Virus record (IMG/VR): IMGVR_UViG_3300030328_003006
Location: 6,380-27,877 of that record
DNA length: 21,498 nucleotides
Origin: a virus
Reading direction: 5' to 3' (one strand)
The position numbers and the translations under genes are program-made. Each line of letters begins with the position of its first letter. Within the stretch, counting starts at the first letter, position 1. Shown one piece after another: positions 3,055 through 21,036 of this stretch. Below the pieces are notes generated by a model. The model saw only the letters and a program-made list of their open reading frames with translations, made no database searches and was not told where the DNA came from.

Positions 3055-6000
3055 ATGGCTGAAATTAAGCAGAATTTTTCGGCAGGTAAAATGAATAAAG
3101 ACCTGGACGAAAGACTATTACCTAAAGGTCAGTACAGACACGCGGAGAATATACAAATATCCACGTCGGAAAGTTCAGACGTTGGGGCTGTAGAAAATAT
3201 ATCTAGCAATATACAGTTATCTGATATTATAGCTGATAGCGCTACATGTGTTGGTTTTTACAGTAACGAAAAAGATAATAGTATTTATTGGTTTACGGTT
3301 GGTAATGCCACACCTGTTTCTTTTGCTAATGGTAATTTTTCTGACAGAAGACCTGATTTTGGCTTTGTTCGTTACACACAAATCGATTGGGATGAGCAAG
3401 GTTTAAGTTTAATTACAAATGATAAGTGGATATTAATATCTGATCAATACCCGCAAGTAGATCATGGTATGCAAATTACTAATGGTATTTTACAAAGAGG
3501 TGATAATATCACTATGCCAAGTTCACCTAGTAATAGTTCAATTAGACAATTAGTAGATGTTATTGAAGGTGTTGAATACAAAGTATCTTATGATAGAAAA
3601 TATACAGGTGGAACATCTACACAAACAAATTGGTATATGGACTGGGGTGATGGAAACCAATCACTTGGCGTGTCAACAGAGTCAAGTGGTAGCTTTGTAA
3701 CTGTAACAGATACATTTGTAGCGTCATTTACAGGTACTATGGAGGCAAGATTATTTTTCATAGCCGACATGGAAGGTCGTATTGATAATGTTTCTATAAC
3801 TTCAGTTAATCAAGTAAGTAATATACTAAAATATAAAAACAACGCTGTAATACCTGTTTTTGTTGATATGGATAATTCTGTATTAAAATTTGATTCAAAT
3901 AATACAATAACAGGTATAAATATTATAGACAATTTATTATTTTGGACAGACAATATTAACGAGCCAAAAAAAATAAATATAGATTTATGTATTGAAGGAA
4001 CTGAAAATCAAAATACAAGCACTAAATTAATTGTGCCAGAAAGAAATATTGATTTATCTTCTGATATAAAAGTAAGAGAAGAGCATATTACGGTTATTAA
4101 AAAAGCTCCTAAAACAAAACTTACGCTAGACATGGAGACAGAAGAAGACACAACAGCCGTGCTTGAAGACGCTCCTTTTACAGATGTTTTCGGCGACTTA
4201 TTACCAATGGCACCAGGAACTATTATACCTTTAACTGGCGCTGGGCTTTTTGTAGGTGTAGAAACAGGTACTTTTATTAATCAAGCAGGTCCAGCACTTG
4301 TAGTTGGAGATGAACTTTTGTTATTAGATTCAGCTGGCCCTAATATACTGCCAGAAAATTACAATATAAAATTAAAAATATTAGCAGATCTTAGTGGACA
4401 ACCAGATGGTGGTGGTGGTACGCTCCCAGCTAATACTTTTAGAACTAAAATTATAGATGGTCTTGTTACTCTTGGTCAAGAGAACTGGTATGTTTTTAAA
4501 AAAGCAAAACAAGAAGATTTTTTTGAAAAACAATTTGCTAGATTTAGTTATAGATATAAATATCAAGATGGTGAATATTCTACTTTTGCACCTTTTTCTC
4601 AAATAGCATTTAAGCCAACCGATTTTGATTATGAAACTAAAAAAGCATACAATTTAGGTATGCAAAATAAATTAAAAGAATTGACACTTAAGAATTTTGT
4701 TGAAGCAGATATTTTAGAAGATGTTGTTCAAATAGATTTATTATACAAAGAATCAAACTCACCAAACGTATATATTGTAGAGACTTTAAAATACAATGAT
4801 TATAGAAATACTACAAACAGCTGGGATGATAATGAATATCGAGTAAACTCAGATCTTATATACGCTATACTTCCTTCAAATCAATTATTAAGACCGTTTG
4901 ATAACGTACCAAGAAAAGCATTGGCACAAGAAATTACTGGTAATAGAATTGTGTATGGTAATTATATTCAAAATTATAATCTAACAGAAAAACCTGTTAT
5001 TAATTCTACTTATACTTCTAGAACAGGCGTTACTCTTAGCGCTGGAACTCCAAACCCATCATTAAAATCATTAAGAAATTATCAACTTGGCATATCTTAT
5101 TTAGATGAGTATGGTAGAGAAACACCAGTATTTAGTAATACAACATCATCTTTTAAAATACCTAAAAGTGAAGCAAAAAATTCTAATGCTTTGCAATTTA
5201 CACCAATAACATCTGCGCCTGAATGGGCTAAATCTTACAAAATATTTGTTAAAGAAACTTCTAACGAATATTATAATTTAGCTATGGATAGGGTTTATAG
5301 AGCTAGAGACGGTAATATATGGCTGTCTTTTCCTTCTTCTGAAAGAAATAAAATAGATGAAGAAACGTTTTTGATATTAAAAAAACAACTAGATGCTAGT
5401 GTTCAAGTTGAAGAAAATTTAAAATACAAAGTAATAGCTATAGAAAGTGAGGCGCCAGTAGAAGTAAAAACAGATACTAATTTTATTGCTAAGTCTAACG
5501 GTAATGGTACAATAGCAGACTTGTTCACAGGCGACATGCCTTTGATAAATGATAAGTATTTTCAAATAAGCGAACCTATTTGGAAAACAGACAACGGTCC
5601 AAGTATTGATAATATTACTGAAGTTTTAAGTATTAAATTTAGAGACACCGCGGCTGGTATTTCGTCAGATTTTTATGAAATATCTTACGTGCAATTTGAA
5701 GCGCCACATTATAATATAACTTTAAGGAATAAAATAAAAGAAGCTGATAGTTGGATTTTTGATAACTATGCTAATACAACTTCTTTTGCAGCATCTGATT
5801 TAAATACAGATTTAGAGTTAAGGATGTATAGAAATATAGTTCAAGATCAACCCAAGTTTGATGGTAAATTTTTTGTAAAAATACTTAATGATGAGTTGAC
5901 AGAAAAATACGTATTAAGAGGTGACGTAAACGAAGAACAATATGTTTCAGTTGGTGTAGTTAGTCCTTTTTATTTAGCTGACAAAGGTGCTGATTACACA

Positions 6001-11281: not shown

Positions 11282-12907
11282 ATGGGAGCAGATCAATACT
11301 TAATAAGAGCAGCAGGGGGAATGGCGCCACAACCGTTTGATTATAGCGGCATAATGCTTGCTATAAAGGCTATGGGCCAATATTCGTCAGCTAAAAATGG
11401 CTTAGCGGATGAAATGGTTACTTATGGTGCCGAAAATTTTAATATTAATGAAATGCCAAAAGAAATTTTCACGGGAACTTATGGTGATCAAAATATGAAT
11501 TTTATCACAAAAGCTAAAGATGATTATTACAAAGCTGTTAACGTGACAAGGAGAACTCCTTCTTGGTCTAAAAAATACAAAAACGCTATAAAGAAAATTA
11601 ATAGTATAAAAAGCATGTTTGAAAAAAACAAAGCAGATGCTGTTAAGTGGGCTAGTATGCAAGGGGAGAATGCTAACAAGGCTTGGAGAAATAGATCTGC
11701 TGGTATTGGATTTGATGCTGAAAATAGATTAGCTGACATAGTGTTAAATCCATATACAAATAAAATGAACTCTGATTTAATTATGACAGAGGGTGGTATT
11801 ATGGTCCAGCAACCAACAGCGGGTGGAAATGATCCATTAAACCCACCACAAGATACTCGAGTAGATATAGGTGGAGAAAGATATGTAACAATGGGTGGGG
11901 AGATTCAGACTGAGCTAATCAATATATCTGATATAATGCAAGGTTATAAGGAAAATCTTGCTTATAAAAAAATAAAACTAGATGACGGTACTTATTTAAA
12001 CATGGCAGAAGAGGTTGAAAAGATTATATTAAAATATGGTAAAACTGCTAAGTTAGGAGGAAGAGGAGATTTTGAAGAGAGATTGTTTAGAAATGAACTT
12101 ACACTTTTGTTTCAAAAAATCAAAAGATTAGGGCCTGATGCCTTAAGAAGTTTAGCTTATGACTATGAAAATGGTGCTAAAGGAGGGACTTTTGTGCAGA
12201 AAAATAGTAAAAATATTATGGGGTATGATGACGAAGAGTGGGTTGAGTTAGTACAGCAGAGTTTTGATGAAGGCTCTAATGAGAAAGGGTTTATATACAA
12301 CGACATGGCCTCTGCAGATATAGATGAGACAAAAACAGGGAAGAGTGCAATGGGTGAAGAAATAATCCAGGGAATATGGCAACAATCAGACGCTAATATG
12401 ATGTCACCTACTCCTTCTACAATATCACAAATGAAAAAGCAAATTTTATCAAGTGCTTTTGCCACTAATAATTACGATGTATTAGAGACGTCGTTAATGG
12501 ATTGGCTTGAAGACATCTCTAGAGAACAATGGGAAACTACTAAGCCAAATGTTATTGACGATAGGAATAGTATAGTAATGGCAACAAATAAAAGAATATA
12601 CAAACAAGACTTTAATACTTTTGTAAATATCATGTCAGGCAAAAGTGATGATCCAACTAGAACTGTAAATCTTGGTGGTGATACGTATAGATATGTAAAA
12701 CAAACAAAAGACTGGAAAGATGATAATGGTGTAGTACATAAACTAAAGGATAAAATGGCTTGGGAAAGTAATTATAATGGTGTTTATGAACCTATACCAC
12801 CAAGAGCTAATGGTAGCGCGGGAAGTGGTAGATCTCTACATTCCTTATTAAACAATAGATCAGAATTTGACTTTTTACTTAATGAAGATTATAATCCTAA
12901 ATTATGA
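11282..12907 (+). CDS. Putative internal virion protein, T7 gp15-like in position (541 aa)
   Basis: This is a mostly helical, charged 541-aa protein without a signal peptide. It opens with MGADQYLIRAAGGMAPQPFD, has a strongly basic helical stretch around residues 97-140 (many Lys, ending NKAWRNR), and an acidic middle with DDEEWVELVQQSFDEGSNEK near 317-336. It ends in a Ser/Gly/Asn-rich tail. I do not recognise a named domain. The role of inner-core or ejection protein is inferred from order: a gp14-like gene lies 14 nt upstream and a giant gp16-like gene overlaps downstream. T7 gp15 is longer (about 747 aa), and sequence similarity was not established. The start ATG at 11282 is preceded by AATTAAAAAATAAAAT, with no Shine-Dalgarno motif. 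The stop (TGA, 12905-12907) overlaps the next ATG. Confidence 0.75.
   Translation: MGADQYLIRAAGGMAPQPFDYSGIMLAIKAMGQYSSAKNGLADEMVTYGAENFNINEMPKEIFTGTYGDQNMNFITKAKDDYYKAVNVTRRTPSWSKKYKNAIKKINSIKSMFEKNKADAVKWASMQGENANKAWRNRSAGIGFDAENRLADIVLNPYTNKMNSDLIMTEGGIMVQQPTAGGNDPLNPPQDTRVDIGGERYVTMGGEIQTELINISDIMQGYKENLAYKKIKLDDGTYLNMAEEVEKIILKYGKTAKLGGRGDFEERLFRNELTLLFQKIKRLGPDALRSLAYDYENGAKGGTFVQKNSKNIMGYDDEEWVELVQQSFDEGSNEKGFIYNDMASADIDETKTGKSAMGEEIIQGIWQQSDANMMSPTPSTISQMKKQILSSAFATNNYDVLETSLMDWLEDISREQWETTKPNVIDDRNSIVMATNKRIYKQDFNTFVNIMSGKSDDPTRTVNLGGDTYRYVKQTKDWKDDNGVVHKLKDKMAWESNYNGVYEPIPPRANGSAGSGRSLHSLLNNRSEFDFLLNEDYNPKL
12904..12907 (+). promoter_or_regulatory. ATGA stop-start overlap, translational coupling
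   Basis: The 541-aa gene ends within the start codon of the 2710-aa gene. Coupling the two putative inner-core proteins would help keep their stoichiometry fixed (inference). Confidence 0.7.
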
Positions 12908-15900
12908 TTCCAATAGATTCTACAGAATATAGAACTCCCGAAGAAATAATCTCAGCTGGCTCTACTGAAGGAGAGACTGGCCCAAATCATATTGCAAATC
13001 TTTATGAAATTAAAAAAAGTATTAATTATAATAAAGATTCAAGGTTTAGAGAGAAAGTCTTAAGTGAATTTTTTGCAATTGAAAGTGATTTTGATAGCGA
13101 AAGACCTAGACTATTTACCCCACGAGACGTTCCTAGTATTGTTGATAGAATACCCGGTAAACAACCAGTTGAATTTGATGCTGGTGGTAGCGGAATGTTT
13201 GATTATAAAAATGACTATGATACTGATTTAAAAAATCATCATGGACAAGATTGGTTTGATCTTTTTACTCTTTTTAATGAAAAAGGTACTATAGAACTTG
13301 ACGAAGTACCAAAATCATTAAAAGAAAGATTTAATAAGGTTTTAGAAAGTGAAAAACAATTAAGAATAAAAACTCTACAAGATACTTATGTTGATCAAAA
13401 TATGACTGAGAACTACTGGGTAATGCCTGAGAAAGTGCCGGACAAAACGCTTTGGCAAGGTTTTGAGCAAGTTGAAGAAAATATATGGGGAGATCCAAAC
13501 GAATTTACAGAACAATGGGAAAAAGATAGAGTAATACAAAAGAGTGATTTTCCACCAAAAATGAAGTATATTGGTCTTGATGATTTAACTCTTGAACCGA
13601 TGTATGAGTTAGACAAACCCGCTAGTGAATTAATCGAGACTAAGTTCAAAGATGTAAACAATAAAATGGGCGATTATATGCGCGCCTATGGCTCTTATGC
13701 TGAAAAACAAATAAGCGAATATAATAGTTTATTGGATAAGTACAACATTTCAAGTGGTAAAGATTTTAAGTTGTCTGAATTACAAGAATTCCTTGACAAT
13801 CAAAACATACCTCTTTCTACAAGAAAACAGGTTTTTGAGAAACAATTAGAAGTTGTAAATGTTTTAAAAGATTTTCAACAACAAGCTTTGGCAGTTGGTG
13901 ATGGGGCGGCGGTTTTAGAAAGTTTAAATAAAAATTATAGTAACACATACGCTGCACTATTAAGTTTACAAAGAATATTGACCGAAACGGTAGACCTTGC
14001 GTTGTTTGGTGGTGAACTTCTTGAAAATTTTGCTTCTACTGGAGATCCATCAAAAGACGCGCGAATTGGAACTATTAAGGCTTATCGTAACGCGCACATG
14101 CCCCAAGCGTACTACATGTTGGATAAAGCCGAAAGCAATCTAAGTCTTGCTGGTAAAGTAGAAAACACTACTTGGGATAATTTTGGTAGTACAGTAACAG
14201 GAATGCTGGCTGATAATACTTTTAGTCTTATTGCCGCATTTACTTACCAAGGAATGATAAAAAGAGGGCTTAAAAGAAAAGCTAAAAAAATTTTAACAGG
14301 TACGTGGATGACGGTTGAAGGTGCTGGAAAATTAAGTAGAATGGAAAAATTACAGCGACTTTCTACTGACAATATTGCTTTTATAAAAAAGCAACTTACA
14401 AACCCAGACATTGTTCCGTCAGAAAAAATTAAATATCAAAAAGAGTTAGAAAAACAACAGAGATATAAAGAATATAGTACCTCTCAAAAATTTTTTGCAA
14501 GTTTAATGTTTGGTGGTATAGCTGCTTATGCAGAGAGAGTTGGTACTATGCGATGGGTTGATGACTTAATACAAACTTCAAAGTATTTAGGTATTAAAAG
14601 TATTAAAGACGGTATTAGAAAAACTGGTAAGTTTTTGTGGATGGGACCTGGTACTGAAGTTATAGAAGAATCACTAACTCTTTTGGGTCACAACATGGTT
14701 GATCAAGCTGTTTTAAAAGAAGATAAAAGTTTAATAGAAGGTATGGATGCTGACTTTTTTGCCAACGTTATTGTAACTTCTTTGGCTATAGGGGCCCCAC
14801 AAATGAGTCAAAACATGAAATTAATAGTTGGATCTCATTTAAAAACTGCAGAAGAGAGAAAAAAATACACATCGTTACTTGAAGAATATATTGATAATTT
14901 ATATATATTAGAAGAAGGTACAAATCTAGCCACAAGAGAAGGTATAAGACTTGCTGATAGAAGTATATTAGAACAAAGAAATCAAGAAATATTACAAGAA
15001 GTAGGAAGGCATGATATTGGAGTTTTTGGAAAAATATCTGAACTTACTTCGGGCGAGATAAAAGAAGTTTTTGATATTGCAAGAAAACAAATGGCAATAT
15101 TAAGACACTTTCAGGATATAGGTGCTAGTGGTCAAACTGGTAAATATACACAAAAAGAAAAACAAAGACTTCAAGAAGAATACGATAATTTACAAGCTCA
15201 AAAAGAAGATCTTTTAAGAACTCCTGAAAAAAATAGATTAATAAAACTTGAGGAAACTCACGGCAAAACAAATGTTACTACTAAAATGTATGAAGATTAT
15301 GGTAAACATCATTATTTTAATACTATTGTAAGGGGTATAATTAAAGACAAAGATAAGTTTAAAATTATTGAAAGCAGAGAAGATCTTGACGAGGCGCTTA
15401 CTGAAGCTGTTCAAAACGGTGTTATATCAGAAGAGTTTAAAGAGCAAATTTTAGCTGGTTATGACGGAACAGCAGAATATACAGGTGGTAATGCTACTTT
15501 TTTACCAGATGGTACTATATTAATATTTGACGAGAATGTTCGGGTGAATTTAGGAGCTACAAACTCAATTGATAGGGAAGATGCAATACAAGCCGCAATA
15601 CATGAACTTGGTCATATTTATGATATTAATAATAGTTTAGTTAAAGATAATCAAGTTGTAGAAGAGGCAAGGGAACTTGTTAGTGGTATATTAGATTATG
15701 TAAAAAACTTGTATGATACAAATAGAATTTCAGAAAAATTATACAATGAGTTTTTGGCGAGAGTAAATACTTACTCAGAAAGTAATTCTGGTCAAGTTGA
15801 TCTTGTAGAGCTTTTGCAAATAATAGCTACAATGAAAAGAGCTGGTATGCTTTCTACTGAAGAAAGTAGTTTAAACTATCATTTAAAAAGCTTTTTTAAT

Positions 15901-18900
15901 GCTTTACACGTTTATAGGTTTGGTGAAAACGCTAGATTTTTACGATTTCAAACAACAGAAGATATTTTAAGATATATTGATAATTTTAATAAAAAAGTTT
16001 TAGAAAGAAAAAATATATCAATGCTTCCACCGGAAGAGCAAGAAGGTATAATGCTTTCTGCTGGTACGCAAAGAACTCCTGAGAAGTTAATTAGAATAAT
16101 TAAAAATAAGAATAGCAAACCAGTTGAAATAAAACGAGCTGAAGCAGAATTATTAGCACAATATAATGCGTTAGCTTTAACTGCTATAAGATTTGACGAT
16201 AGAGCTGGTGATATACCTAGAAAAAACGTTGTTTCTGCTCTATCTGTTTATTTGCCTAATCTTATAAAAAGATATGTACCTGGAAAAGCTAAATTTTCTA
16301 CATTTGTAACTTCAAATATTGGTCCTAAAAACGACACAATATATGAAGAGGCTAAAATATTAGCTATACGTGATGGTGTTAAGCTTGACGATCCAAATAT
16401 ACAAGATCTAGCTGGTGATGTAAATGACATGGCAAATACACAAAACACTTTTGTGCAAAAGATAAACATGCTAACAGATTTTTCTATTGTGTCTACTGCA
16501 GCAAATAAAATAAAAGCTTTAGTAAAAGCAAAGGTTGGTGATACTTTTAAACAAGTGATACAAGATTATGCTGGTAAAGTTGGTGAACTTATATTTGGTA
16601 TACCTGCTAAGAAAATTATGGAAGGTGGTGCTAATTTAACTGCTGTTACAAAATATGAAAAAGGCATGCCAATACCAGCTGAGGGCCAAAGTATACAAAG
16701 AATTTTTGGTGCAGGAGAAAATATGAGTAAGTTTATTAAAACTTTACCATTGTTAAATGTTGCTAGGAAAACAGCTGATATAAATAAAGTTGGTGAAAAC
16801 ATAGATGTATCAAGAGAGGTTTATGGTAGGGCTATTGGTTTGAAAGGTAGAGTACAAGATTATTTTTACGAAGATTATACAGATCCAAAGGCTCTTAGTA
16901 AAGACCCTAAAGTTAAACGAGATGCTGAAACATCGCCAGGTGGTAGAAGTTTAGGCTTATCAAGCCAAACACCTGTTAAAATATTAAAGCCAGAGTTTAG
17001 AAATCCAACACCTGAGACTATTGAAAAAGTTAAACAAGATTTTGGTATAACTCCTAAGGGTGAGCCGAATGTGTATAGCAGAGATATTGGACAATTATTA
17101 AAAGCAGCCGCCAAAACACTTTCAATTGGTGTGTCATTATCTGGTGCTCAAAGAGGTTTAGAAGAGAGAAAAGCGCCTAAAAAAGAAATAGCTAAAGTTA
17201 CAACTGCACAAAGCAAAGCTGCTTTTAGCGCGGGTACTGCTAGAATGAAAACAGACGTTATGCACTCTGGCATTATAAACCTTACGTTTGAAGGTGACAA
17301 TGCAAGAGCTGACCAATTATTAAAAGTGGCTGGGTTAAGATTAACATTTAAACACCGTACTGAAGACGAAATAAACGAGTATTTTGATTTCTTTGAAAAT
17401 ACTATTCTAAAAGTATTTCCAAGAAATATGTTTGGAGGAAGTTTAAAAAGTTTTATAAAACCAAGTAGAAGAATACTTCCAAAAAGAAAAGGTGATAAAA
17501 AAAGAGGTGATGAAATACTTACACTAAAAGACGGTAGAAAAATAAGCATTAATGATTACTTTAACGAAAAAAGAGATGATTTAATAAAAAGAGCTAAAGA
17601 AGATTATGATGGTGATAATAAAGTTGTTTTTGGAAAACCATTTGAAGGTGAGGGCGCTAAGTATAAATACGGCGATACTTTTGCAAAATTATATGGAGGT
17701 GATTTTGACGCAAATGATCCAAGATATATAAAGGCAGTTGAAAAAGCTTTTTATGACGGTACTAGAGAAGAATATAACGCAATATTTGCTAGCATGCATC
17801 AGCAGATGATGGCTAGAATAAATGAATCAATAAAAGCAGATCGTACAAACGCAACAATATGGGCTAGTTATTTCACGCTTGTAGGTTTAGATTCAAAGCA
17901 TCCTTGGCGAATGGGTGCTGAGTGGGTATTGTTTACTAAAAAACCAATTGGAGCTGCAAAGTTAAAAGGTGGAAAAATAAGCACTAATCCAAAAGCAGCT
18001 GGTTTTAAATATTACGAGTGGGAACACGCTATGATGGCTACAAGATCATATATGTATTTATTAGAAGCAATGTTGCTGCCGATTACTATGGAAGATGGAA
18101 CAGAAATATCTGTTGACTTTGATTTGGCTTATACTTTAGTAATGGAAAACTACAAATTAATAGCTCTTGATAATTACGATGATAAAGTTAAACTTGGCGG
18201 ATCAGGTAGACAAAAAACAATGGGTAGAGATTGGCAGTTTTTAGTAGATACTTTTCTTAAAAGGTATTTTGATAGCCCTGTTGCTGCTATTAAAGGTATA
18301 AATGGTAAAGGTATAAATCCAAAAAGCTTATTTGGCGAGGGTAGAAAAACAGCTGCAGAAATATATAATGTAAATATTAACGGAAATATACAAGCTTTAG
18401 ATACTCAAGTTAAACAAAGAGGTATGTTTTCAAAAGGAACTAAAATAGCTAGAGGTTATAACAAGAACACTAAGGCAAGGGGCATGAGTACTTTTGATTT
18501 TGATGAAACGTTGATTATTGACGGCAAAAATTTTATCACAGCCACAAGTCCTGATGGTGATGTTATTAAAATTAGTAGTGGGCAATGGCCTATACAAGGC
18601 CCTGACTTGATGAATCAAGGTTACACTTTTGATTTTAAAGATTTTGTAAACGTGCGCGGGGGACAAGAAGGGCCACTATTACAGAAAATGAAAAACCAAA
18701 TAGAAAAGTATGGCACTAGTAATGTTTTTGTGTTAACAGCTAGAATGCAAGAAAGTGATACGGCAATACACGGTTGGTTAAAAAGTAAAGGTATAACTAT
18801 ACCATTAAAAAATATAACTGGACTAGGTAATAGCACTGGCGAAGCAAAGGCCATGTGGATGTTAGAGAAATTCAGTGAGGGTTATAATGATATGTATTTT

Positions 18901-21036
18901 GTTGATGACGCCTTGCCAAACGTTAAGGCTGTTAAAAACGTATTAGAGCAATTAGATATAAAATCAAAAGTAGTTCAAGCTAAAGTTAATTTTAGCGCTG
19001 GAACTAAGTTTAATAAAATACTAGAAGAAGTTACTGGTATTAGTGCTAAAAAAAGATTTAGTGGGGTAAAAGCCAGAAAGCGTGGCGCTGACAAGGGTAA
19101 GTTTAGATTTTTTATACCACCGTCACACGAGGATTTTGTAGGTTTACTTTACAATTTTATTGGAACCGGCAAAATGGGTAATAGACATAGAGACTTTTTT
19201 GAAAAAACATTAATAAAACCTTTAAACACTGCTTTTAGAGAATTAAATGCTACTAAACAAGCTATAGCAAACGACTACAAAAACTTAAAAAAATTAAACC
19301 CTAAAATAGCTAAACAACTAAATCAAAAGGTAAAAGAAAGAAAGCTAGGCGATTACACTTATGGTGATGCTGTAAGAATATATTTATGGGATAAGCATGG
19401 TTACAATATACCTGGGTTAAGTAAATCTGATCAAACCGTGCTAGTTGGCATTGTTAAAAGCGATAGCAAACTAAAGCAGTATGCAGATACTGTAAACATA
19501 ATATCTAGACAAGAAAAATATGTTGCTCCTGGTGATGTTTGGGAAATAGGTGATGTTAGAACCGATTTGATACAAGCTACAGAGGGTGTTAATAGAGATC
19601 AGTTTTTTACAGAGTTTAATAATAATATTGCTGAAATTTTTAGTAAAGAAAATCTAAATAAAATTGAAGCTGCTTATGGAGAAAATGTAAGAGAGGCGCT
19701 TGAGGACATGATTCATAGAATTAAATCAGGTAGAAGAAGACCACAAGGTACTAATAAAAATGTAAATAGATTTTTAGATTATTTACAAGCTTCTATTGGT
19801 GGCGTGATGTTCTTTAACATGAGATCTTCTGTGTTACAGCAATTATCTATTGTTAATTTTATAAACTTTGAAGACAACAATTTATTCCAAGCAGCTAAGG
19901 CATTTGCTAATCAAAAACAATACTGGAGAGATTGGGTAATGATATTTAACTCTGATATGTTAAAGCAAAGAAGAGGTGGTTTAACAATGGATATTAACTA
20001 TCAAGACATAGCTAGTCACGCCGCTAGGTCAAAACAGCCTATAAGAGCTATAATAAAAAGACTTTTAACTTTAGGATTTACGCCAACACAAATATCTGAT
20101 AGTATGGCTATTGCTTCTGGTGGTGCTACTTTTTATAGGAATAGAGTAAAAACTTATTTGAAACAAGGTTTAAGTCAAAAAGAAGCTGAGCAAAAAGCTT
20201 TTGATGATTTTCAAGGAGTTGCTGAATCAACTCAGCAATCCGCAAGACCTGACATGACATCGTCTCAGCAAAATTCCGTGCTAGGTTGGTTTATATTAGG
20301 TTTTCAAAACGTTACGTCTCAGTATGCTAGAATAATGAAAAAATCTGCTAGTGATATTATAAATAGAAGAATATCGCCTCCATACAAGACCCAAAGAAAA
20401 AGTGACATGGCAAATGTTTCCAGAATACTTTACTACGGTTTTGTACAAAATATAATTTTTTACACTTTACAAACGGCTTTATTTGCTGCCTTGTTTAACG
20501 AAGATGAAGATGATGAGGAGTTTTTGAAAGGCAAAAAAGGAAGAATATTAAATGGTACATTAGACAGTTTGCTTAGAGGTGCTGGTGTTGGGGGTGCAAT
20601 TGTATCTACATTAAAAAATATGGCCTTTGCCTTTGCAAGCGAAAGGTCTAAGCAGTGGAACAATGACGAGAGTAGTGTATTAGTTGAGTTATTAAACGTG
20701 TCTCCACCGCTTGGTATTAAAGCTAGAAAAATAGTTAATGCGGAAAAAACACTTAACTATAATGCAAAAGTAATAGATTATATGGACACGTTTGATATTG
20801 ATAATCCAATTTGGTCAGCCGCAACCAATTATATTGAGGCTGTAACAACACTACCTGCGAATAGACTATATAATAAAACGCAAAATCTTAGAGAGGCAAC
20901 TGACAGCGATAATAACGCATGGCAAAGATGGTTTATGATGTGGGGTTGGAGTCAATGGAATCTTGGTATAGAAGACGATGAGATTGAGCGAATAAAAAGG
21001 ATTACTAAAAGAAGAAAAAAGAAAAAACAATTATGA
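12904..21036 (+). CDS. Giant multi-domain internal virion / polyvalent protein with zincin and HAD domains (2710 aa)
   Basis: Order seen: a helical N-terminal part with hydrophobic patches near residues 530-542 and 617-631; a coiled-coil-like stretch near 735-765; a metallopeptidase-type segment with HELGH at 900-904; a sigma-region-2-like patch, KRYVPGKAKFSTFVTSNI (1122-1139); an uncharacterised region with YEWEHAMMATRSYM; then a HAD phosphatase domain (DFDET 1865-1869, TAR 1945-1947, Lys1982, VDDALPNV 2000-2007). The C-terminal third has GATFYRNR, QQSARPDMTSSQQ, a hydrophobic helix 2508-2531, an acidic patch 2533-2539, a LLRGAGVGGAIVSTLKN segment and a basic tail RRKKKKQL. I recall this C-terminal part from giant phage proteins and it resembles LPD38-type regions. 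Four [F/L]S[A/K]GT motifs lie at 1051, 1441, 1842 and 2030. At about twice the length of T7 gp16 and in the equivalent position, it is probably ejected with the DNA, perhaps as a processed polyprotein. Confidence 0.85.
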   Translation: MIPIDSTEYRTPEEIISAGSTEGETGPNHIANLYEIKKSINYNKDSRFREKVLSEFFAIESDFDSERPRLFTPRDVPSIVDRIPGKQPVEFDAGGSGMFDYKNDYDTDLKNHHGQDWFDLFTLFNEKGTIELDEVPKSLKERFNKVLESEKQLRIKTLQDTYVDQNMTENYWVMPEKVPDKTLWQGFEQVEENIWGDPNEFTEQWEKDRVIQKSDFPPKMKYIGLDDLTLEPMYELDKPASELIETKFKDVNNKMGDYMRAYGSYAEKQISEYNSLLDKYNISSGKDFKLSELQEFLDNQNIPLSTRKQVFEKQLEVVNVLKDFQQQALAVGDGAAVLESLNKNYSNTYAALLSLQRILTETVDLALFGGELLENFASTGDPSKDARIGTIKAYRNAHMPQAYYMLDKAESNLSLAGKVENTTWDNFGSTVTGMLADNTFSLIAAFTYQGMIKRGLKRKAKKILTGTWMTVEGAGKLSRMEKLQRLSTDNIAFIKKQLTNPDIVPSEKIKYQKELEKQQRYKEYSTSQKFFASLMFGGIAAYAERVGTMRWVDDLIQTSKYLGIKSIKDGIRKTGKFLWMGPGTEVIEESLTLLGHNMVDQAVLKEDKSLIEGMDADFFANVIVTSLAIGAPQMSQNMKLIVGSHLKTAEERKKYTSLLEEYIDNLYILEEGTNLATREGIRLADRSILEQRNQEILQEVGRHDIGVFGKISELTSGEIKEVFDIARKQMAILRHFQDIGASGQTGKYTQKEKQRLQEEYDNLQAQKEDLLRTPEKNRLIKLEETHGKTNVTTKMYEDYGKHHYFNTIVRGIIKDKDKFKIIESREDLDEALTEAVQNGVISEEFKEQILAGYDGTAEYTGGNATFLPDGTILIFDENVRVNLGATNSIDREDAIQAAIHELGHIYDINNSLVKDNQVVEEARELVSGILDYVKNLYDTNRISEKLYNEFLARVNTYSESNSGQVDLVELLQIIATMKRAGMLSTEESSLNYHLKSFFNALHVYRFGENARFLRFQTTEDILRYIDNFNKKVLERKNISMLPPEEQEGIMLSAGTQRTPEKLIRIIKNKNSKPVEIKRAEAELLAQYNALALTAIRFDDRAGDIPRKNVVSALSVYLPNLIKRYVPGKAKFSTFVTSNIGPKNDTIYEEAKILAIRDGVKLDDPNIQDLAGDVNDMANTQNTFVQKINMLTDFSIVSTAANKIKALVKAKVGDTFKQVIQDYAGKVGELIFGIPAKKIMEGGANLTAVTKYEKGMPIPAEGQSIQRIFGAGENMSKFIKTLPLLNVARKTADINKVGENIDVSREVYGRAIGLKGRVQDYFYEDYTDPKALSKDPKVKRDAETSPGGRSLGLSSQTPVKILKPEFRNPTPETIEKVKQDFGITPKGEPNVYSRDIGQLLKAAAKTLSIGVSLSGAQRGLEERKAPKKEIAKVTTAQSKAAFSAGTARMKTDVMHSGIINLTFEGDNARADQLLKVAGLRLTFKHRTEDEINEYFDFFENTILKVFPRNMFGGSLKSFIKPSRRILPKRKGDKKRGDEILTLKDGRKISINDYFNEKRDDLIKRAKEDYDGDNKVVFGKPFEGEGAKYKYGDTFAKLYGGDFDANDPRYIKAVEKAFYDGTREEYNAIFASMHQQMMARINESIKADRTNATIWASYFTLVGLDSKHPWRMGAEWVLFTKKPIGAAKLKGGKISTNPKAAGFKYYEWEHAMMATRSYMYLLEAMLLPITMEDGTEISVDFDLAYTLVMENYKLIALDNYDDKVKLGGSGRQKTMGRDWQFLVDTFLKRYFDSPVAAIKGINGKGINPKSLFGEGRKTAAEIYNVNINGNIQALDTQVKQRGMFSKGTKIARGYNKNTKARGMSTFDFDETLIIDGKNFITATSPDGDVIKISSGQWPIQGPDLMNQGYTFDFKDFVNVRGGQEGPLLQKMKNQIEKYGTSNVFVLTARMQESDTAIHGWLKSKGITIPLKNITGLGNSTGEAKAMWMLEKFSEGYNDMYFVDDALPNVKAVKNVLEQLDIKSKVVQAKVNFSAGTKFNKILEEVTGISAKKRFSGVKARKRGADKGKFRFFIPPSHEDFVGLLYNFIGTGKMGNRHRDFFEKTLIKPLNTAFRELNATKQAIANDYKNLKKLNPKIAKQLNQKVKERKLGDYTYGDAVRIYLWDKHGYNIPGLSKSDQTVLVGIVKSDSKLKQYADTVNIISRQEKYVAPGDVWEIGDVRTDLIQATEGVNRDQFFTEFNNNIAEIFSKENLNKIEAAYGENVREALEDMIHRIKSGRRRPQGTNKNVNRFLDYLQASIGGVMFFNMRSSVLQQLSIVNFINFEDNNLFQAAKAFANQKQYWRDWVMIFNSDMLKQRRGGLTMDINYQDIASHAARSKQPIRAIIKRLLTLGFTPTQISDSMAIASGGATFYRNRVKTYLKQGLSQKEAEQKAFDDFQGVAESTQQSARPDMTSSQQNSVLGWFILGFQNVTSQYARIMKKSASDIINRRISPPYKTQRKSDMANVSRILYYGFVQNIIFYTLQTALFAALFNEDEDDEEFLKGKKGRILNGTLDSLLRGAGVGGAIVSTLKNMAFAFASERSKQWNNDESSVLVELLNVSPPLGIKARKIVNAEKTLNYNAKVIDYMDTFDIDNPIWSAATNYIEAVTTLPANRLYNKTQNLREATDSDNNAWQRWFMMWGWSQWNLGIEDDEIERIKRITKRRKKKKQL
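16051..19005 (+). repeat. Four dispersed [F/L]S[A/K]GT peptide motifs at domain junctions
   Basis: Copies lie at 16051-16068 (MLSAGT), 17221-17238 (AFSAGT), 18424-18441 (MFSKGT) and 18988-19005 (NFSAGT). They split the protein into segments of about 1052, 390, 401, 188 and 679 residues, and the 188-residue segment is almost exactly the HAD domain. Synonymous codons differ between copies (for Ser: TCT, AGC, TCA, AGC; for Thr: ACG, ACT, ACT, ACT), so the peptide rather than a recent DNA duplication is conserved. A basic residue follows within two to four positions each time. A weaker match, RFSGVKARK, lies at residues 2051-2059. Confidence 0.65.
21033..21036 (+). promoter_or_regulatory. ATGA stop-start overlap, translational coupling
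   Basis: The TGA of the 2710-aa gene overlaps the ATG of the exported-protein gene. This ties synthesis of a cell-envelope protein to the virion operon. Confidence 0.65.

Follow-up and report, generated by a model that had tools for sequence, protein, structure and literature searches.

Lineage-specific tags at the module borders of a giant crAss-like phage protein: a candidate recognition signal for its own zincin-like domain

The locus and its giant protein

The window (the whole stretch of DNA analysed here, 21,498 nucleotides) sits in a 27.9-kb virus record and carries a giant multidomain protein behind a crAss-like structural module. This module is composed of a weakly ring-like protein (PF25710 gives only a weak match in the window genes), virion structural proteins and a muzzle, whose match to PF25729, the C-terminal domain of the Crassvirus muzzle, exceeds the cut-off (6e-9), with structural PHROGs in the neighbouring genes. 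The muzzle N-terminus is present in 49/49 related contigs searched, and ORFs that we take, from reading their sequences, to be portal-like and capsid-like precede the window in the same record. The muzzle match, the structural PHROGs and the muzzle N-terminus in the related contigs place the phage, by its sequence, among the crAss-like phages (Crassvirales). The portal-like ORF (L029:1118-3535, C-terminus NFESAGNDNIGG) and the next ORF (L029:3564-4799, N-terminus KFKSAGDDSIVK), both in the bases of the record before the window, have F[KE]SAG[DN]D[SN]I in common, possibly a second recurring peptide.

The giant protein is probably an ejected cargo (polyvalent) protein of this phage, a role suggested by gene position (compare PMC10172136); its place behind the muzzle and structural genes would likewise point to delivery into the host. 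As in polyvalent proteins, several unrelated domains lie in one large polypeptide, here a zincin-like domain, a HAD domain and further modules, and the modules vary among relatives. A Pfam search found nothing above cut-off for the whole protein, nor for its single modules. The features discussed below are:

12904..21036, plus strand: giant multidomain protein, 2710 aa, a real ORF downstream of the muzzle and structural protein genes
15277..16008, plus strand: zincin-like metallopeptidase domain, residues about 792-1035, with HExxH and a distant Glu; pLDDT about 58-93 per ten-residue block
15601..15615, plus strand: HELGH active-site motif, residues 900-904
15808..15810, plus strand: Glu969, candidate third zinc ligand
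16054..16068, plus strand: tag J1, LSAGT, residue 1051, in a low-confidence linker right behind the zincin domain; in relatives FSES (L002), FSED (L054), LSAGT (L003)
17224..17238, plus strand: tag J2, FSAGT, residue 1441; in relatives AAFSAGS (L003), AAFSERL (L002), AAFSEAF (L054)
18427..18441, plus strand: tag J3, FSKGT, residue 1842, ahead of the HAD domain; in relatives FSRGT (L003), FSEAT (L054), MSLAV (L002)
18472..18987, plus strand: HAD phosphatase domain, residues about 1857-2028, with a DFDET motif; closest to the T4 polynucleotide kinase 3' phosphatase
18991..19005, plus strand: tag J4, FSAGT, residue 2030, between the HAD and C-terminal domains
18991..21033, plus strand: conserved C-terminal domain, residues 2030-2710 (alignment A1), with no further tag copies

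A first scan gave 27 related loci, and an alignment-based scan found at least 480 IMG/VR relatives, 80 of them retained, and a further 13 in genome assemblies; after removal of repeats, the comparison set held 114 proteins of at least 900 aa. In INPHARED (50,697 phage records), tblastn found no relative at E 1e-3, and the C-terminal part gave one doubtful match (E 0.3); there being no convincing match, no isolate with proteomics was found. Judged by their sequences, the several hundred IMG/VR relatives form a large crAss-like group from which INPHARED contains no isolate. The LPD38 polyvalent proteins of Bacteroidota were also looked at; their loci are too short for the tag to be judged.

HExxH occurs in 100 of the 114 relatives, nearly always once, and those that lack it are mostly truncated proteins. 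Across 36 divergent members, the alignment leaves as invariant only one Gly, the His/Glu/His of HExxH and one Glu about 60 residues further on, which is the signature expected of a zincin; it is on this HExxH...E pattern alone that we call the domain zincin-like. Both elements are invariant in alignments A3 and A4, and the other zincin group has its invariant Glu at a distance that agrees with that of Glu969 (invariant in A3). Searches of Pfam (with the zincins of the window and of the relatives), of PDB sequences and of folds gave no confirming match, and a structure search with the whole zincin model listed no metallopeptidase, its results being dominated by disordered and helical regions. 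HDxxH stands in place of HExxH in three relatives, HDAFH in L059, HDGLH in L061 and HDILH in L071, which are possibly altered or inactive metallopeptidases, and one relative has neither motif; L059 and L071 keep a J4 tag, and L061 is without one.

For the HAD domain, the best VIA-align match of the model is to 5uj0_B (Z 10.7, rmsd 3.0 over 126 residues, aligned range 463-634 of the model). The HAD fold together with DxDxT, here a conserved FDFDET, is that of the T4 Pnkp 3' phosphatase type. In L023 an additional module follows the HAD domain, with FSDSG on one side of it and FSDSN on the other. L021 carries a P-loop insert (GAGSGKS) directly after its HAD domain, with no tag between the two and a tag only after the insert, as if a kinase-phosphatase pair were kept together.

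Tag copies at the module borders

The original prediction was of a motif, FSAGT, that appears four times within about 1000 residues. Exact FSAGT is present only twice, at residues 1441 and 2030; four copies are reached as [FL]S[AK]GT, with LSAGT at 1051 and FSKGT at 1842. Over 2000 residue shuffles, [FL]SxGT averaged 0.08 copies, and none reached four copies or two of exact FSAGT. Repetition alone is nevertheless weak evidence, because any protein of this length should contain about three repeated 5-mers, and it is the comparative data that carry the claim. The proposed placement around known domains was borne out: J3 lies 22 residues ahead of FDFDET (residue 1864), J4 begins two residues after the end of the HAD-aligned range at residue 2028, and J1 follows the metallopeptidase region, 151 residues past HExxH. 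The copies also differ in their codons, as had been noted. Whether they sit in exposed linkers, a check suggested at the outset, receives a divided answer, since J1 and J4 are in predicted low-confidence linkers and J2 and J3 in low-confidence predicted helices. At J1 the pLDDT is under 50 over model residues 256-277 (tag at 272-276), while J4 (636-640) coincides with a five-residue dip below 50 at 635-639, between a HAD strand (626-631) and a helix (640-650). The models are poor outside the zincin and HAD domains, and J3 resembles a conserved pre-HAD helix of the form [LF]-[SN]-K-A-V..AR.

Two look-alikes occur in the muzzle protein, FSAGK at 3076 and LSAGT at 5038, and both are probably chance, the comparison with relatives covering the FSAGK position only. 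There the relatives read F-[S/T/L/I/F/V/N]-x-G-K-M-N-K-D and the position does not track the phage's tag, for which reason FSAGK was rejected as a tag. In the module between J1 and J2 (16054-17223), the segment RYVPGKAKFSTFVTSNI recalls sigma-factor region 2 by eye; Pfam gives this no support.

The relatives carry their own versions at the same borders. L003 (78% identical over the query region) reads LSAGT, FSAGS, FSRGT and FSAGT at the four sites; L054 reads FSEDT, FSEAF, FSEAT and FSEGL, with FSE at all four; and L002 reads FSES, FSERL, MSLA and FSEGL. The residue after the serine accordingly runs A/A/K/A in the window, A/A/R/A in L003, E/E/E/E in L054 and E/E/-/E in L002. The J1-J2 module is much alike in all four proteins, whereas L002 and L054 have metallopeptidase regions very unlike that of the window. 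At the border between the HAD and C-terminal domains, FSAGT is found only in the window and L003, most proteins having [K/N]-[F/Y]-S-x-x, with KFSKS the commonest form. FSAGT is one lineage's version and finds no support as a general signal, and a motif scan across homologues, as originally proposed, recovers the borders but in most proteins not the FSAGT itself. L003 has a further match, MSAGTETIE, at residue 544. L056, L065, L070 and L085 have [YF]DR[DE] ahead of the C-terminal domain and YNR[KE] ahead of the HAD domain, perhaps another version of the tag.

The two residues that follow [FY]S at J4 were set against those that follow [FY]S further upstream, both within one protein and between proteins; conserved core motifs were left out. 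With regular expressions, score cut-offs and the number of top matches chosen during the work and not beforehand, agreement within a protein exceeded permutation at z 5.2 (42 non-redundant proteins), while 14 control dipeptides all stayed at |z| ≤1.4, so that the signal is specific to [FY]S. Significance is also reached at some neighbouring positions (two and four residues further along, offsets 5-6, and the pair preceding F), and because these carry signal the tag is probably several residues long. For a few proteins (e.g., L054, L057, L104) the regular expression for J4 picks a wrong position, an error that should add noise, not signal. A set of 51 proteins retrieved once the idea existed gave z 5.8, these proteins having also been part of the earlier pooled tests.

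Inheritance alone is disfavoured as the source of this agreement, which holds when tags are permuted within clusters of at least 70% C-terminal identity (z 5.9) and in near-independent sister pairs, where 27 of 36 informative pairs are positive and 9 negative (sign P 0.002); the sequences share ancestry, and sister pairs reduce its effect and do not remove it. Gene conversion or linker duplication was rejected as the origin of the copies, as their codons do not match: synonymous codons agree in 211 of 368 cases against 200 expected, and serine codons in 32 of 122 against 32.7. Since codon agreement is no more than chance, the similarity between copies lies in the peptide. In three proteins whose J4 lacks the serine, the substituted sequence is seen again further upstream: L010 and L011 (KFKRTA with KYKRTS, KFKRVS) and L097 (KFASKM with KFASKP), a recurrence matched in about 1% of other proteins; several other proteins with a serine-less J4 show no upstream recurrence of their J4 sequence, and L017, L020, L049 and others have no clear tag at J4.

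The tags occur only in the part of the protein that lies between the HExxH zincin-like domain and the C-terminal domain. Downstream of HExxH, 91 of 424 [FY]S resemble the J4 tag, compared with a mean of 55.8 and a maximum of 75 for permuted tags (200 permutations); upstream of it the count is 10 of 293 against 10.4, with no within-protein agreement (z 0.01). The test is negative in the C-terminal domain downstream of J4 (z 1.3), and the other ORFs of the loci have no excess of the phage's own tag (30/970 against 31.4). Distances from HExxH to the first tag downstream of it peak at 100-200 residues. The comparison thus reveals a recognition-like signal under concerted selection, and the original suggestion of selection on a short peptide at domain borders finds strong support in a motif that varies between phages, agrees between the borders of one protein and occurs only downstream of the metallopeptidase.

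What may read the tag

When phages are compared, the tag differs in a concerted way at all borders, which suggests recognition by the metallopeptidase domain of the same protein. With C-terminal and HAD similarity allowed for, proteins with more similar zincin regions also have more similar J4 tags (partial Mantel r 0.17, 0/1000 permutations as high); no such prediction comes from the pre-HAD region, the HAD domain or the second C-terminal region in the same test. The regions flanking the zincin are predictive too, and the N-terminal regions more weakly than the zincin: adding N-terminal covariates leaves the zincin at P 0.011 and, given the zincin, the post-zincin region has P 0.0045 and the N-terminal P 0.04. 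When the C-terminal identity of a pair is 80% or more, the tag is shared in 6 of 11 pairs whose zincins are related versus 12 of 70 whose zincins are not (P 0.012, the pairs being non-independent). In the pair L012 and L014, C-terminal identity is 97%, the zincins are unrelated and the tags differ. Statistically modest and short of proof as they are, these comparisons modestly favour the zincin as the putative reader of the tag.

We infer that the tag is a lineage-specific recognition signal at the module borders, probably for cleavage, read by the protein's own zincin and yielding about five products, and we consider this reading reasonably probable. The zincin would read the tag within the same polypeptide, and recognition would lead to cutting at or beside the aromatic/serine core. 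Many zincins favour a large hydrophobic residue immediately C-terminal to the cut, so that the cut would fall before F/Y/L/M. The expected products would be an N-terminal unit of about 120 kDa with the protease, middle modules of 43 and 46 kDa, the HAD phosphatase of 21 kDa and the C-terminal domain of 78 kDa, with separation taking place before packaging or else in the host after ejection. Against self-processing stand the tags kept by L059 and L071 despite HDxxH, the want of a clear J4 tag in L017, L020, L049 and others, the searches that gave the zincin no confirming match, and the place of J2 and J3 in low-confidence predicted helices.

The tag could instead be a docking peptide that is never cut, by which a common partner (the N-terminal unit, the zincin serving as a binding domain, or a portal or packaging factor) holds each module, tag and partner co-evolving. 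Our comparative tests show recognition, not cutting, and both the predictive N-terminal regions and the tagged HDxxH members suit such a partner. Self-processing nonetheless fits more simply, because J1 and J4 lie at borders in predicted low-confidence linkers, the tags begin right after the zincin and other proteins of the locus have no excess of them. HExxH and the distant Glu, invariant while the remaining zincin diverges, also speak against docking; we regard it as unlikely, though the most serious of the alternatives. A separate protease of phage or host might cut at the tag, for instance a prohead protease like the one reported to cut head and ejection proteins in the giant phage SPN3US (PMC10052503, PMC7411985). 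Against this, other ORFs of the loci have no excess of the phage's own tag, and the tag is linked to zincin similarity and to no other gene; a host protease, moreover, would not readily explain a tag that changes between close relatives, and we think this reading improbable. Least probable of all, by a little, is an ordinary flexible linker or helix cap (an aromatic, a serine, then a helix) recurring by composition or linker recombination, since, even with a helix starting at once after J4 and J3 resembling the pre-HAD helix, capping or composition does not predict [FY]S-specific agreement, absence upstream of the zincin or joint loss of the serine, and the unmatched codons speak against recent recombination or gene conversion.

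Taking recognition by the zincin further, the ejected giant proteins of crAss-like phages may be true polyproteins, in which zincin and border tags co-evolve like lock and key; an exchanged protease module would then force a change of all border tags, and the tag would serve as a barcode restricting processing to the phage's own protein. We put this wider proposal forward tentatively and hold it with rather less confidence than the reading of the tag itself.

Known systems

Why so many injected phage proteins contain metallopeptidases has been a question since polyvalent proteins were described, and a readable tag makes it directly testable. The tag also predicts module borders in hundreds of unannotated giant proteins, and its family offers candidate protease-peptide pairs of differing specificity. 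One likeness is to RNA-virus polyproteins cut by their own protease, in which several sites share a virus-specific sequence that follows the specificity of the protease; it is drawn without a claim of homology, the window protein being a probably ejected protein of a DNA phage, with a metallopeptidase.

Among crAss-like phages, the cargo proteins of phi-crAss001, e.g., gp45-gp50, are similarly large, are encoded after the muzzle and are expected to be ejected, a likeness by gene position; they are packaged in capsid and tail, and neither "cleavage" nor "protease" appears as a word in the paper that describes them (PMC10172136). The N4 virion RNA polymerase is likewise giant and ejected and has a zincin-like domain with HExxH, yet it is packaged unprocessed, which counts against self-processing, and no tag series is mentioned for it in the available parts of the sources (PMC12633501, PMC5512222). 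Polyvalent proteins as described by Iyer et al. (2017; PMC5512222) are giant multi-module phage proteins with HExxH domains, for whose zincins autoproteolytic release of modules was proposed, P1 DdrB being a processed precedent; no recognition signal is described in the part of that work available, and a lineage-specific, concerted tag downstream of the zincin is a feature of the window family. A tag of this kind was not found described in the available portions of the literature on polyvalent and crAss-like cargo proteins. Processing by zincins is a proposal known since 2017; new, within those sources, are the lineage-specific tag, its concerted change between phages and its confinement to the region downstream of the zincin.
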